NCBI RefSeq assembly: GCF_000265205.3 | Contig: NC_018000.1 | Coordinates: 6,376,001-6,440,000, forward strand | DNA from: Sinorhizobium fredii USDA 257 | GTDB lineage: Bacteria; Pseudomonadota; Alphaproteobacteria; Rhizobiales; Rhizobiaceae | Reading direction: 5' to 3' | DNA length: 64,000 bases | Part shown: positions 9,898-14,437 of the stretch, in pieces | Numbering within the stretch: the stretch's first letter is position 1 | Layout: each line of letters begins with the position of its first letter | Made by a program: the position numbers and the translations under genes | Notes under the pieces: model-generated | Databases searched by the model: none | What the model saw: only the letters and a program-made list of their open reading frames with translations | What the model was told of the DNA's origin: nothing

Positions 9898-9987
9898 CCG
9901 TCAGTGACTGTTTCAAGCGCCAAGTTTGAGATGACGCTGATCGTTTGATTGACCAGTATACGTAAACAGCTCGAGGAGAGTACGACC

Positions 9988-10524
9988 ATTCGCAGACCGT
10001 TCAAAGCGGACGCCCCAGTCAAGGAAGGGCCGCGCGCAAACAAGGAAATCCGGGTCCCCCGGGTTCAGCTCATCGACGCCGAAGGCCTGAATTTGGGCAG
10101 CGTCCCGATCGATCAGGCGCTCCGCATGGCGGAAGAGTCCGGTCTCGATCTGGTGGAGATCGCACCGAATTCCGAACCGCCGGTGTGCAAGATCCTCGAT
10201 CTTGGCAAGCTGAAATACGCCAACCAGAAGAAGGCGGCCGAGGCGCGCAAGAAGCAGAAGATCGTCGAGATCAAGGAAATCAAGATGCGCCCGAACATCG
10301 ACACCCACGATTACGAGGTGAAGATGAAGGCGATGAACCGCTTCTTCGAAGAGGGCGACAAGGTCAAGGTGACGCTGAAGTTCCGCGGCCGCGAAATGGC
10401 CCACCAGGAGCTCGGCATGAAGCTTCTGCTGCAGGTCAAGGACGATACCCAGGCGATCGCCAAGGTTGAAGCCGAGCCGAAGCTGGAAGGTCGCCAGATG
10501 ATGATGGTGCTTGCGCCCAAGTAA
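9988..10524 (+). CDS. infC: translation initiation factor IF-3, ATT start
   Basis: Translation from the ATT at 9988 gives [14 protein letters not shown] and a 178-residue protein, the usual IF-3 length. GAGGAGAG at 9973-9980 lies at the right distance from this codon, while the upstream TTG (9949) in the same frame has no such site. The N domain holds [13 protein letters not shown] and the C domain [15 protein letters not shown]-3 controls start-codon choice on the 30S subunit, and an ATT start is the known basis of IF-3 autoregulation. Unlike the usual order, rpmI and rplT are not next but about 3.7 kb further on. Confidence 0.96.
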
Positions 10525-10565: not shown

Positions 10566-10592
10566 AAAGGCCGCCGTGAGGCGGCTTTTTTC
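10566..10592 (+). terminator. infC terminator
   Basis: Arms GCCGCC (10570-10575) and GGCGGC (10580-10585) with a GTGA loop, A4 before and T6 after. It suggests infC ends its own transcript and does not read into the following genes. Confidence 0.88.
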
Positions 10593-10616: not shown

Positions 10617-10655
10617 CTGACAGAATGCTGACAGCCGTGCTCAGCCGCCTGTCAG
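10617..10655 (+). promoter_or_regulatory. CTGACAG direct repeat, candidate OmpR/PhoB-type regulator site
   Basis: CTGACAG occurs at 10617-10623 and 10628-10634, an exact 11-base period, and the near-inverted CTGTCAG lies at 10649-10655. Heptamers repeated every 11 bases are how PhoB/OmpR-class regulators bind. It lies 50-90 bases before the start of the glycine-rich gene. Which regulator binds is inferred. Confidence 0.5.
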
Positions 10656-10704
10656 TTGCCAAATGCCAGTCTCTGCCCGTTCCGAAACAAGGAAGGGTAA
10701 AGAT

Positions 10705-11370
10705 ATGCACAGCGCATTCAAAAAAGTGCTGCTCGTTTCCACAATGAGCTTGTTCGGCGTCGTTGGAGGGCCAGTGACGATGGCTCTTGCGGATACCGGC
10801 GCGGCCAGCAGCTTCGAAGCCGGACCTAACGGTGGCTTCGACACCAGCAGCCCCACCACAGTCGGCGAAGGTGGATCCGGTGGCGGACAGGACACCGGCA
10901 CGGGCGGCGGACAAGACACCGGCACCGGTGGCGGTGAAGGCGGCGGCACCGGCGGCGAAGGCGGCGGCACCGGCGGCGAAGGCGGCGGCACTGGCGGCGA
11001 AGGCGGCGGCACCGGCGGCGAAGGCGGCGGCAGTGGCGGCGAAGGCAGCGGCGGCGAAGGCGGCGGCAGTGGCGGCGAAGGCGGCGGCACTGGCGGCGAA
11101 GGCGGCGGCAGTGGCGGCGAAGGCGGTGGCAGTGGCGGCGAAGGCGGCGGCACCGGCGGCGAAGGCGGCGGCACTGGCGGCGAAGGCGGCGGCACCGGCG
11201 GCGAAGGCGGCGGCACTGGCGGCGAAGGCGGCGGCACTGGCGGCGAAGGCGGCGGCACCGGCGGCGAAGGCGGCGGCACTGGCGGCGGACAAGACACTGG
11301 CACCGGCGGCGGGCAGGACACCGGCACCGGCGGCGGGCAGGACGGCGGCGGAACTCCGACGGCGAACTGA
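10705..11370 (+). CDS. secreted glycine-rich heptapeptide-repeat protein
   Basis: The 221-residue product starts with a signal peptide (MHSAFKKVLLVSTMSLF...MALA, cleavage near residue 29). After a short unique stretch it consists of two GGGQDTGT units, about 16 copies of the heptapeptide GEGGG[T/S]G plus one shortened copy, then two more QDTGT units and a short tail ending TPTAN. It has no known domain; it should be an unstructured extracytoplasmic protein. GGAAGG at 10691 supports ATG 10705. The neighbouring PepSY-like protein carries a similar Gly/Asp/Thr-rich linker (GGSTGDTGT), and both precede a two-component system, so a shared envelope role is plausible but unproven. Confidence 0.75.
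   Translation: MHSAFKKVLLVSTMSLFGVVGGPVTMALADTGAASSFEAGPNGGFDTSSPTTVGEGGSGGGQDTGTGGGQDTGTGGGEGGGTGGEGGGTGGEGGGTGGEGGGTGGEGGGSGGEGSGGEGGGSGGEGGGTGGEGGGSGGEGGGSGGEGGGTGGEGGGTGGEGGGTGGEGGGTGGEGGGTGGEGGGTGGEGGGTGGGQDTGTGGGQDTGTGGGQDGGGTPTAN
10926..11290 (+). repeat. 21-base tandem repeat array
   Basis: The heptapeptide part is encoded by a 21-base unit (GGCGGCACCGGCGGCGAAGGC) repeated about 17 times with few silent changes. Other frames stay open through it purely because of the repeat. Copy number is likely to vary among strains. Confidence 0.9.
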
Positions 11371-11394
11371 TCCGATTCCGACCTGAGCCCTTAA

Positions 11395-11471
11395 CTGCGG
11401 CGGTGGCTGTCCCATCGCCGCAGACTTCCTCAAATTCGTGCCTCTCGCATCACTCCTGCTGCGAGGGGCAC
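11395..11471 (+). terminator. two tandem strong hairpins after the repeat gene
   Basis: Hairpin 1 pairs 11395-11406 with 11412-11423 (CTGCGGCGGTGG/CCATCGCCGCAG, one G-T). Hairpin 2 pairs 11438-11449 with 11460-11471 (GTGCCTCTCGCA/TGCGAGGGGCAC, one G-T). Neither has a long T-run, so they may end or stabilise the transcript or form a small RNA. Confidence 0.55.
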
Positions 11472-11611
11472 GCCCGTTTCAGTAAGAAAATCGACGTTCC
11501 ACCCCTGTTTCCGTCACTTTTCTGGCGGATGCTGCGGCGACCTATGTTGAGGGGATAATGAGAGACCATATCTGCCTGGAGCGCGCCGCACCGCCTCGTC
11601 CCGCTTCGCTC

Positions 11612-12028
11612 ATGCGCCGGAGTCTGGCCGCATTTGTTTGCTGGTCGGTTGCGTCCTGTGTCGTGCCGTTCTCCGCGAGCGGCGCGGCTTTGGCCGATGA
11701 CGGCAAGACCGGCCGCGGCAACTCGGATGCCGGCGGCAGCACCGGCGATACCGGCACCCGAGGTGATCGCAGCACGGCAGCCCCGGAGAACGGGAGTCGG
11801 GAAACGAGAAGCCAGGAGGATGCGCGAGACGCCGTCGTCAAGGGAGAGATCCTGCCGCTGAGCAAGCTGCTCGCCTTGGTGGATCGCGATCTCTACGGCA
11901 TGGTCATCGCGGTTGATCTGGTGCGGTACATGGGAAGCGACGTCTATCGGCTGAAGACGCGGGATGGCGCGGGCGTCATCCGCGACCTCCGGATCGATGC
12001 GCGCACCGGCAGTTTCGTGAAATTCTGA
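11612..12028 (+). CDS. secreted PepSY-like small protein upstream of a two-component system
   Basis: Translation from ATG 11612 gives 138 residues: a signal peptide (MRRSLAAFVCW...ALA), a Gly/Asp/Thr/Arg-rich linker, and a C-terminal PepSY-like fold (ILPLSKLLALV, then YRLKTRDGAGVIRDLRIDARTG). An in-frame ATG at 11558 adds 18 residues before the signal and is less likely. The gene is followed after 7 bases by the response regulator, so all three are probably one operon. Small periplasmic proteins of this type inhibit their partner kinase in the rhizobial FeuN/FeuP/FeuQ system; a similar role here is inferred from layout only. Confidence 0.75.
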   Translation: MRRSLAAFVCWSVASCVVPFSASGAALADDGKTGRGNSDAGGSTGDTGTRGDRSTAAPENGSRETRSQEDARDAVVKGEILPLSKLLALVDRDLYGMVIAVDLVRYMGSDVYRLKTRDGAGVIRDLRIDARTGSFVKF

Positions 12029-12035
12029 GGCAGAC

Positions 12036-12701
12036 ATGCGCATACTTCTGGCAGAGGACGACCTCAACATTGCTGGCCATGTCCGCGGGAAACTCGAGGC
12101 TGAAGGCTATGCGGTCGATACGCTTGCCCACGGCCCCGACATCTGGGAGCGCGGCGAAGACGGCGGCTATGCAGCCATCATCCTCGACCTCGGCCTGCCC
12201 GGCCTCGACGGATTGTCGATCCTCAAGCGGTGGCGTCTCGACGGCGTGGAAACGCCGGTGGTGGTGCTGACCGCCCGCGGATCCTGGATGGAGCGCGTCG
12301 ACGGGTTCGAGGCCGGCGCCGACGACTACATTCCCAAGCCGTTTCGCGCCGAGGAGCTGCTGGCGCGGCTGAGGGCGCTTCTGCGGCGCGCCGGCCCGCG
12401 ATTCCAGATCATCAAATCGGCGGGCCGCTTCACGCTTGACGAGGCGACCCGCCGGGTCACCTTCGACGGAGAGGCGCTTGATCTCAGCCCGCTCGAATTC
12501 CGGATGGTCGCCTACTTCATCGAACGCAAGGGCGAAGTGCTGTCGCCGCTCGAACTGGCAAGCCATGTCCAGGGACGCGACGACGACTCCGCCAAGAACG
12601 CCGTCGAGGCGATGATCGCCCGGCTGCGCCGCAAGACCGAGAGCCGCGCCATCGAGACGCGACGCGGATTCGGCTATCTCCTGCCGGACGACCCTTCATG
12701 A
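12036..12701 (+). CDS. OmpR/PhoP-family response regulator
   Basis: The 221-residue protein has a receiver domain with acidic pocket D8-D9, phospho-acceptor Asp51 (IILDLGLPG), Thr in VVLTARG and Lys in YIPKPF, then a winged-helix DNA-binding domain with LSPLEFRMVAYF and the RRGFGYLL end. It would be phosphorylated by the adjacent kinase, whose start overlaps its stop by four bases. Targets are unknown; the CTGACAG repeat upstream of the glycine-rich gene is a candidate site. Confidence 0.93.
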   Translation: MRILLAEDDLNIAGHVRGKLEAEGYAVDTLAHGPDIWERGEDGGYAAIILDLGLPGLDGLSILKRWRLDGVETPVVVLTARGSWMERVDGFEAGADDYIPKPFRAEELLARLRALLRRAGPRFQIIKSAGRFTLDEATRRVTFDGEALDLSPLEFRMVAYFIERKGEVLSPLELASHVQGRDDDSAKNAVEAMIARLRRKTESRAIETRRGFGYLLPDDPS

Positions 12702-14065
12702 TGCGCTCGCTGCGGCTGCGACTGGCGGTCGGAGCAGTGATCGCAATCGGCCTCGTGCTGCTCGTAGCGTGGCTTTCCCTGACCCGGCTGTTCACCGATT
12801 ACGTGGTCGGGCGGTACCGCGGCGAGATGATGACGATCGTCGACACGCTCGCTGCCGAACTCGCCTTGCAAGAGGGCCAGCTTATGCTCGCGCGCGAGCC
12901 GGCAGATCCGCGTTTCGACCTGCCGAACGGCGGCCGCTACTGGCAGGTCTCACCCGTCGACGGCAGTCACCTGCGGTCGCGCTCGCTCTGGGACGTGGCG
13001 ATCGATGCCGACGCTCCGGTCCCTTCGCGCTACGAGGGTTTTACCATCAGTGAAGGTCCGGACGGACATCCGATGCTGGTCCACAGCCAAAGCCTGTCGC
13101 TTGGCGAAGGTGCCCCGGCGATCCGGTTCGTCGCGTCAGCGGCGTTTCCTAAACGGGAACTCGACGAAGCGCTGGGCGATTTCCAAGCGGCGCTGCGGCT
13201 GATGCTGCTTGCGACCGCCGGGCTCCTGGCCGCCGCCGCCTTTTTCCAGAATGCCATCGGGCTCAAGCCGCTCCGCCGCCTGAGCGAGCGGGCGGCCTCG
13301 GTGCGCGCCGGCCGCGACCGGGATTTCGGAACCTCCGGCCCAAGCGAGGTGCAGCCGCTGGTCAGCGAGATCAATCTCCTCCTGAAGGAACGCGAAGTGG
13401 CGGTCGAGCGCGCGCGTGCCCGCGCCAGCGATCTCGCCCACGGCCTCAAGACGCCGCTGACGGTGCTGGCGCAGCTCGCGGAGCGGCTTCCGCCGGAGGA
13501 TCGCGCCTTGGCGCTCAGACAGGTGGAACTCGCCCGCCAGCGGGCCGACCGGCAGCTGCAGGCCGCGCGCATGGGCGTCGAGCGAATGGCGACGACGTCG
13601 GTCATGGGCCTTGGCGGCAAGCTCGTCAGTGTCCTTCGTCCCGTCACCGCCGAGCGGGATGTCGCCTGGGAAGTTTCGATCGACAGCTCGCTTTCGCTCG
13701 ACGTCGATCCGGCCGACCTTGCCGAATGTCTCGGCAATCTGCTCGACAACGCCGCGAAATGGGCGCGTTCGTTCATCCGCTTCTCGGCACGCCGGGCCAA
13801 CGGCGCCATCACCATCCTGATCGAGGACGACGGGCCTGGCATTGCCGAACAGAACCGCGTGGCGATCCTCAGACGCGGTGCACGGCTCGACAGCACCGAC
13901 GACCGAGAGCCCGAAGGCGCGGGACTGGGTCTCGCGATCAGCGCCGACATCGCCGAGGCCTATGGTGCCTCCTTGACCCTAGAGCAGTCCGACCTCGGAG
14001 GACTGAGAGCCCGGCTGACCTTTCCGGTCAGGGTCGTGCGGCTTCCGGTGCGCGATCCCGCCTGA
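12698..14065 (+). CDS. PhoQ-like sensor histidine kinase
   Basis: The 455-residue protein has a transmembrane helix at about 11-30, a periplasmic sensor of about 130 residues, a second helix at about 165-185, a HAMP-like linker, the phospho-acceptor His248 in DLAHGLKTPL and an ATPase domain with N-box NLLDNAAKW (347-355), DDGPGI and GAGLGLAI. The input signal is unknown. The PepSY-like protein encoded upstream would be exported to the same compartment as the sensor domain, which makes it the obvious candidate modulator. Confidence 0.93.
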   Translation: MMRSLRLRLAVGAVIAIGLVLLVAWLSLTRLFTDYVVGRYRGEMMTIVDTLAAELALQEGQLMLAREPADPRFDLPNGGRYWQVSPVDGSHLRSRSLWDVAIDADAPVPSRYEGFTISEGPDGHPMLVHSQSLSLGEGAPAIRFVASAAFPKRELDEALGDFQAALRLMLLATAGLLAAAAFFQNAIGLKPLRRLSERAASVRAGRDRDFGTSGPSEVQPLVSEINLLLKEREVAVERARARASDLAHGLKTPLTVLAQLAERLPPEDRALALRQVELARQRADRQLQAARMGVERMATTSVMGLGGKLVSVLRPVTAERDVAWEVSIDSSLSLDVDPADLAECLGNLLDNAAKWARSFIRFSARRANGAITILIEDDGPGIAEQNRVAILRRGARLDSTDDREPEGAGLGLAISADIAEAYGASLTLEQSDLGGLRARLTFPVRVVRLPVRDPA

Positions 14066-14233
14066 GCCGCGGCTCAGCGTATGCCATGATCAACGGGCGG
14101 CTTGCGCTTTTGCAGGACTTCGGCTACAAGCCCCCCGTCCGAACGGTCCGGCAGGGCATGCCGTGGCCGTTCTTAACGCTGGAAACCAGCCTCGTCAGCC
14201 GGTTTCGCATATCAAGAACAATGGAGTAGCAAA

Positions 14234-14437
14234 ATGCCCAAGATGAAGACGAAATCGTCTGCCAAGAAGCGGTTCAAAGTAACCGCGACCGGCAAGGTTC
14301 GAGCTGCCGCTGCTGGCAAGCGCCACGGCATGATCAAGCGGTCCAACAAGTTCATTCGCGACGCACGCGGAACCATGGTTCTCGCAGAGCCTGATGGCAA
14401 GAAGGTCGTCAAGAATTACCTGCCGAACGGTCTCTAA
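14234..14437 (+). CDS. rpmI: 50S ribosomal protein L35
   Basis: The 67-residue basic protein has the L35 signature [21 protein letters not shown] and matches the family length. It lies 38 bases before rplT and belongs to one transcript with it. GGAG at 14223-14226 is its ribosome binding site. Its usual upstream partner infC is separated from it by the two-component block. Confidence 0.97.

Follow-up and report, generated by a model that had tools for sequence, protein, structure and literature searches.

What is a regulator-kinase pair, accompanied by two secreted proteins, doing between infC and rpmI of Sinorhizobium fredii USDA 257? The locus was studied in a stretch of 64,000 nucleotides (the window; contig NC_018000.1, positions 6,376,001 to 6,440,000 of the forward strand), in which four plus-strand genes lie between these neighbors (Table 1), encoding a secreted glycine-rich repeat protein (gene A), a secreted PepSY-like protein (gene B), an OmpR-family response regulator (RR), and a sensor histidine kinase (HK). 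The layout is not a matter of chance, since the block recurs at infC-rpmI in 11 of the 33 Sinorhizobium genomes compared there, with ten complete copies and one (G042) that ends at a contig end within gene A. It is a real, conserved, and self-contained variant of the known DbfQRS-like kind and not a new class of system. What is new is its control site, a promoter marked by a tripartite box that was recognized in this analysis, together with the closely linked secreted partner A, the presence of the same box near distant relatives, and the coevolution of the A and B linkers.

DbfQ of Vibrio cholerae, a PepSY protein encoded before a regulator-kinase pair, is reported to bind the sensor domain of the kinase with a Kd of 30 nM and to shift the kinase toward phosphatase activity; the dbfQRS operon appears to be autoregulated, outer-membrane stress activates it, and PepSY-linked two-component modules are said there to be widespread (PMC12714742). 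The S. fredii block shares with DbfQ-DbfR-DbfS the feature by which such modules are recognized, a regulator and a membrane kinase whose genes are immediately preceded by one for a small secreted PepSY protein, and with Pseudomonas aeruginosa PA2658/PA2659-BqsRS (CarRS) the placement of two small secreted proteins before the pair. It differs from both in that its first protein is a low-complexity repeat protein rather than a PepSY protein, with a separate small C-terminal domain in other genera, and in its identified box and its site between infC and rpmI. The original prediction had likened the layout to FeuN-FeuP-FeuQ of Sinorhizobium meliloti, a small periplasmic protein beside an OmpR/PhoQ-like pair; a periplasmic restrainer of the kinase is plausible, but DbfQRS is the better-documented parallel. 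FeuN is reportedly essential in S. meliloti, unlike the block, which is absent from 22 of the 33 Sinorhizobium genomes. The catalytic half of the kinase resembles PhoQ (best PDB matches 3cgy and 1id0), but the NCBIfam PhoQ match spans HK residues 170-442, leaving out the sensor domain with its RSRSLWD motif (alignment A1), and both proteins fall far below the equivalog cut-offs (128 of 497 bits for PhoQ and 131 of 336 bits for PhoP). The assignment of B draws on its relatives: no Pfam family matches the B of the window itself, but over the domain it shares 88% identity with the closest relative in the alignment, Pfam PepSY is matched at E<=0.1 by 23 of 32 aligned B domains (best 1.7e-07; alignment A3, with L191 left out), and the B profile matches the PDB PepSY chain 9vy3 at 4.9e-12. 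No description of this block or box was found in the titles and opening abstract lines of literature on PepSY two-component systems, Feu, UzcR/Y/Z, DbfQ/BqsRS, LanPepSY, or infC-rpmI, the box sequence itself not having been searched. A Mesorhizobium loti PepSY protein appears in PMC11511026 and is not tied to this block.

The box precedes gene A and is followed by a -10-like element. At up to two mismatches it is expected 0.02 times in the window and observed at this one site, where it is visible on both strands. Across the whole genome (7.03 Mb) there is one exact copy and none with one mismatch; six further places match with two mismatches, compared with one for a reversed-pattern control. 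Aligned promoters from 30 loci (boxless loci are excluded, as are L189, L191, and L193, whose spacer is 15 bases) show the box and then CATNNT, the fixed positions carrying about 1.9 bits, compared with 0.26 upstream. Each of the 11 genus genomes with the block has the box there with at most one mismatch, four blockless ones have a one-mismatch box elsewhere, and the copy of the block on a plasmid of R. leguminosarum WSM1325 also has the box with one mismatch. A scan of the best 80 loci by kinase match gave 34 with HK identity of at least 47%, taken as the orthologous set, and 45 that are more distant; among the 34, the box is exact in 26 and has one mismatch in one (27 within one mismatch upstream of the block), two mismatches in two, and no match in five. 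The pattern suggests that the box is the binding site of this regulator family. Because its single exact genomic copy stands in front of gene A, A is the likely output; the predicted control of the glycine-rich gene by the regulator gains a conserved promoter box, while binding of the regulator is presumed.

Gene A matches no Pfam or NCBIfam family. Its start at ATG 10705 is favored over that at 10663 by relatives and by a ribosome-binding site, its signal peptide spans about residues 1-29 (by eye), and its N-terminus, MHSAFKK..LLVST, is homologous in relatives. That A is a random glycine-rich open reading frame was rejected on the conservation of its signal peptide, ribosome-binding site, and box and on the finding of the window-type gene at the block only. 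The small C-terminal domain of A (C-domain) is absent in the window's clade, where the repeat is expanded; elsewhere it occurs in 12 of 297 family genomes, once in each and always adjoining an HK orthologue, while the window-type start of A is present in eight of the 33 genus genomes, again only at the block. Neither search found A apart from the block, as expected if the glycine-rich gene is tied to the two-component genes. The C-domain of relatives has no clear PDB fold match (Foldseek, VIA-align 2), which does not make its fold new, and its interpretation as a second PepSY domain was not supported (hhalign probability 3.9). The twin hairpins between A and B recur in six of eight relatives folded, all in the window's clade (L054, L056, L057, L059, L060, and L070, the last with an insert between the two), and are absent from L068 and L078; they may raise the abundance of A over that of the signaling genes.

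The same features could be read differently, with RR/HK as an envelope-stress regulator of a wide regulon and A as an incidental, co-transcribed surface or biofilm protein with no signaling role. DbfRS controls many genes (PMC12714742), and A is highly variable in sequence and length, lacking its C-domain in seven of 23 loci, as might be expected of a non-signaling surface protein. The single exact full box in the genome, from a target scan that covered the full box to two mismatches, argues against this account; so do the failure to find A away from the block in the searched genomes and the coevolution of the A and B linkers described below. We consider this account rather unlikely.

Outside the block, the exact box is found at 26 sites in 25 of the 297 family genomes. 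By our own judgement 12 are orthologous blocks, seven lie beside paralogous kinase genes, one precedes an RTX gene in Rhizobium alvei, one is in G236, and five are considered further below. With a stricter form of 38 bases, 394 family genomes yielded 20 sites, each in a different genome, and four of these came from further genomes (G485, G498, G521, and G555); two of the four, L317 and L332, were looked at more closely. The 45 more distant RR/HK loci include 20 with a B-like match and 21 with a box at no more than one mismatch, and in 19 of these 21 the box faces PepSY_2 and/or cytochrome b561 genes, Pfam names that derive from one locus and were extended to the others on similarity. In G217 a paralogous PepSY-RR-HK set stands on one side of the box and a gene for an RTX calcium-binding-repeat protein on the other, the genome having 20 RTX repeat matches. 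R. alvei (G209) carries a stand-alone RTX calcium-binding-repeat gene with an exact box (L291, 3121-3588), flanked by guanylate kinase-like and ksgA-like genes (named by eye), while its own A promoter has a degenerate box; as that genome holds 168 RTX repeat matches, the link is weak. RTX proteins resemble A in being secreted and in their Gly/Asp repeats, and one RTX gene has the box in each of these two other genera, but A has no match to the PF00353 nonapeptide repeat. Two further sites were noted. An exact box in G236 (L296, 3933-7842) lies 77 bases before a 573-codon phosphoethanolamine-transferase-like gene (by eye), which is followed by another regulator-kinase pair, and in G286 (L290, 2881-3612), next to a paralogous two-component system of the PepSY type, a box faces a gene whose secreted product is rich in Gly, Ala, and Pro and may be a low-complexity partner of independent origin.

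The acidic content of the A and B linkers coevolves. Among 23 loci, picked by hand for having both genes readable and hence not random, linkers of an A-B pair are closer in composition than those of shuffled pairs (Jensen-Shannon 0.106 vs 0.167, p<=2e-5). Correlation of single residues is clear for Asp (rho 0.81; one locus per group, n=20) and His (0.71) and not clear for Ser (0.41), Thr (0.35), Glu (0.32), Asn (0.21), or Gly (0.12). Over 22 contrasts on the kinase tree, the Asp plus Glu (D+E) content of A and B linkers correlates with r 0.79, 20 of the 22 having the same sign and the permutation p being printed as 0.0000; by residue, Asp (0.85) and Ser (0.64) correlate and His (0.25) does not. 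Control contrasts for the kinase, the regulator, and the PepSY domain are flat.

This coevolution, with the Asp-rich linkers seen in many of the loci read (Ciceribacter selenitireducens, L183, is one Asp-rich species) and the boxes facing RTX genes in G217 and R. alvei, would also fit a scheme in which A and B form a cation-binding sensor pair and the kinase reads their loading with Ca2+ or another metal and not a ligand of its own domain. PepSY domains have been implicated in metal binding, as in LanPepSY; UipA is another such case, cited in PMC12714742. For BqsS/CarS of P. aeruginosa, Fe2+ is sensed directly, while Ca2+ has been suggested to act through another operon protein or elsewhere (PMC12666569). 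The many RTX repeats of R. alvei weaken that case, no metal-site residues were identified in A or B, the window's B linker is nearly neutral, and the linkers of L160 are poor in acidic residues (A 10%, B 2%). We hold the sensor-pair scheme only tentatively and think it somewhat doubtful.

A conserved box and a -10-like element precede the operon, and the block is, we think, probably a self-contained envelope-signaling circuit of the DbfQRS kind, with A-B-RR-HK autoregulated and A as its main output. The kinase would respond to conditions in the periplasm, the status of divalent cations or of the outer membrane being the likeliest signal, and B, by analogy with DbfQ, would bind its sensor domain and keep it in the phosphatase state. 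Relief of this restraint would lead to phosphorylation of the regulator, which would bind the box and turn on the operon; as the regulator would thereby activate the genes led by the box, A is proposed as the main output. A, a flexible secreted protein of Gly/acidic repeats, may serve to buffer or organize cations or polymers in the envelope, B would restore the off state as negative feedback, and the presence of RR and HK in their own operon would provide positive autoregulation. Regulator binding, the contact of B with the kinase, the ligand, and the biochemical role of A are what we infer. Owing to the Asp-rich linkers and RTX targets, a divalent cation is a reasonable guess for the ligand in many genera; the window's linkers are only mildly acidic, and a cation role is therefore least sure in the window's own system. 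A bolder version, which we regard as possible but not likely, is a one-promoter two-component system with its own two coevolving low-complexity secreted proteins as output, in which a divalent cation is buffered or presented by A, the kinase learns of the buffered state through B, and the box serves as a code for PepSY-linked regulators across Proteobacteria. If it were true, the sensor would read a condition set by its own product, and the box would predict PepSY_2-cytochrome b561 genes, RTX proteins, and A as targets.

Several observations weigh against the proposed circuit. Gly content shows no A-B link (0.07 in the contrasts), and the acidity of A linkers tracks the GC content of the locus (r 0.43, p 0.024; for B linkers r 0.33, p 0.06), so the A-B link could be caused by shared DNA repeat dynamics. 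In composition, the window's B comes no higher than 10th of 23 in closeness to the A of the window, whose linker is 14% D+E with a net charge of -24 over 176 residues, compared with -1 for B. For five of the 26 exact family boxes no connection with such a system is apparent, and 24 of the 45 distant loci lack a box at up to one mismatch. In the orthologous set, the matches in L178 and L190 need two mismatches and none at two or fewer is present in L166, L180, L182, L187, and L194, of which the first two regions end short upstream and the other three do not. A is not discernible in L187, L189, L191, L193, and L194, is missing from the distant locus L221, and in G555 the box leads directly to a B-like gene.

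The block is conserved, lost, and moved as a unit, and comparison of infC-rpmI intervals bore out the expectation that its four genes travel together, both within the genus and in other Rhizobiaceae. S. fredii NGR234 is another carrier, its B being NGR_c36220. In the 22 blockless Sinorhizobium genomes the infC-rpmI gap is 242-508 bp, and one of them (G022) retains the 3' end of the HK gene as a deletion scar. The HK query has matches in 114 of 297 family genomes at E<=1e-48 and better than 1e-100 in 19, the window's included. Both infC and rpmI are present in at least 11 of twenty regions fetched around family HK matches (L153 not being among the rows listed), and the flanks of the 34 orthologous loci comprise infC and rpmI in 26, rpmI only in three, and neither in five. 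Copies away from the site include those in Rhizobium sp. Root1334 (L167) and on plasmid pR132501 of R. leguminosarum WSM1325, typed as conjugative and the sole record at E<=1e-60 among 72,556 plasmids. These copies, the patchy presence in the genus, and the nesting of L166 and L167 beside the window's clade in the HK tree, a placement that suggests transfer in the origin of those two copies, would suit a mobile cassette that landed between infC and rpmI by accident. Such a cassette is already disfavored and appears highly improbable, given that the main genus-level clades of the HK tree are also those of the infC tree (the latter being weakly resolved), that the site is kept in many genera, that G022 bears a scar of loss, and that none of 11 annotated features around the plasmid copy is a recombinase. 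A distant metagenome-assembled genome (Pseudomonadota KLAP69; L221, 4143-7602) has B-RR-HK and an exact box between infC and rpmI, with 67% identity to the window in infC and 35% in the kinase; from this layout, the infC-rpmI site of the system may be older than the family.

The gene order and spacing expected from the original prediction are borne out by open reading frame and Pfam calls, with 7 bases between B and RR and a 4-base overlap of RR and HK, as are the terminator of infC, recovered in a scan, and the Gly/Asp/Thr-rich stretches common to both secreted proteins, seen in the window's reading frames. The block had also been thought to split a normal infC-rpmI-rplT operon, a view that did not hold. 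Fourteen of the 22 blockless Sinorhizobium regions were printed and judged by eye, and all 14 have a GC hairpin with a T-rich stretch 3' of infC and a conserved promoter-like stretch and leader 5' of rpmI. With a terminator behind infC and a promoter-like region ahead of rpmI in these relatives, the block is located between two transcription units; no operon is split, and the wedge is less odd than first described. Two side observations concern the flanks. The rpmI 5' leader (14128-14236) holds CCGTCCGAACGGTCCGGCAGGGCATGCCGTGGCCGTTCTTAACGCTGGA, near-identical in the window and 14 other Sinorhizobium intergenic regions; it has no Rfam match even at E 10, its fold is unexceptional (z -1.54), and it may be an undescribed ribosomal-protein leader. 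Short palindromic repeat-like inserts, presumably of the RIME/RPE type, lie between the infC terminator and the box in L054, L057, and L078, and similar ones are found in the infC-rpmI region of the blockless L062 and L074 (all by eye).

Table 1. Features of the infC-rpmI region in the S. fredii USDA 257 window.
Feature	Position	Strand	Basis or remark
infC (translation initiation factor IF-3)	9949..10524	+	upstream neighbor; Pfam IF3_N and IF3_C
Intrinsic terminator of infC, GC hairpin and T run	10568..10592	+	scan
Tripartite box CTGACA-N5-CTGACA-N16-TGTCAG, candidate response-regulator site	10617..10655	+	sole exact match genome-wide
Candidate -10 element CAGTCT (consensus of aligned promoters CATNNT)	10667..10672	+	position-specific conservation; putative
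Gene A, encoding a secreted repeat protein of 221 aa rich in Gly and Glu	10705..11370	+	open reading frame; homologous N-terminus in relatives
21-bp tandem repeat within gene A, 17.4 copies, 90% matches	10929..11287	+	Tandem Repeats Finder
Pair of strong hairpins in the A-B interval, lacking a T run	11395..11472	+	fold z -4.34
Gene B, encoding a secreted PepSY-like protein (another possible start at 11612)	11558..12028	+	PepSY matches in relatives
OmpR-family response regulator (RR)	12036..12701	+	Pfam Response_reg 2.2e-21, Trans_reg_C 1.6e-16
Sensor histidine kinase (HK), PhoQ-type catalytic part, own periplasmic domain	12698..14065	+	Pfam HATPase_c
rpmI, with own promoter-like region and leader	14234..14437	+	downstream neighbor; Pfam L35p; conserved upstream stretch

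A box that marks the target promoters of PepSY-linked two-component systems makes it possible to search for what most of them sense and control. In this genome it leads to one target, a secreted repeat protein that was not found away from the block. The finding is one of interest to specialists: the system is small, it is dispensable in the sense that many relatives lack the block, and its inhibitor, output, and sensor could be deleted separately with one reporter as the readout.

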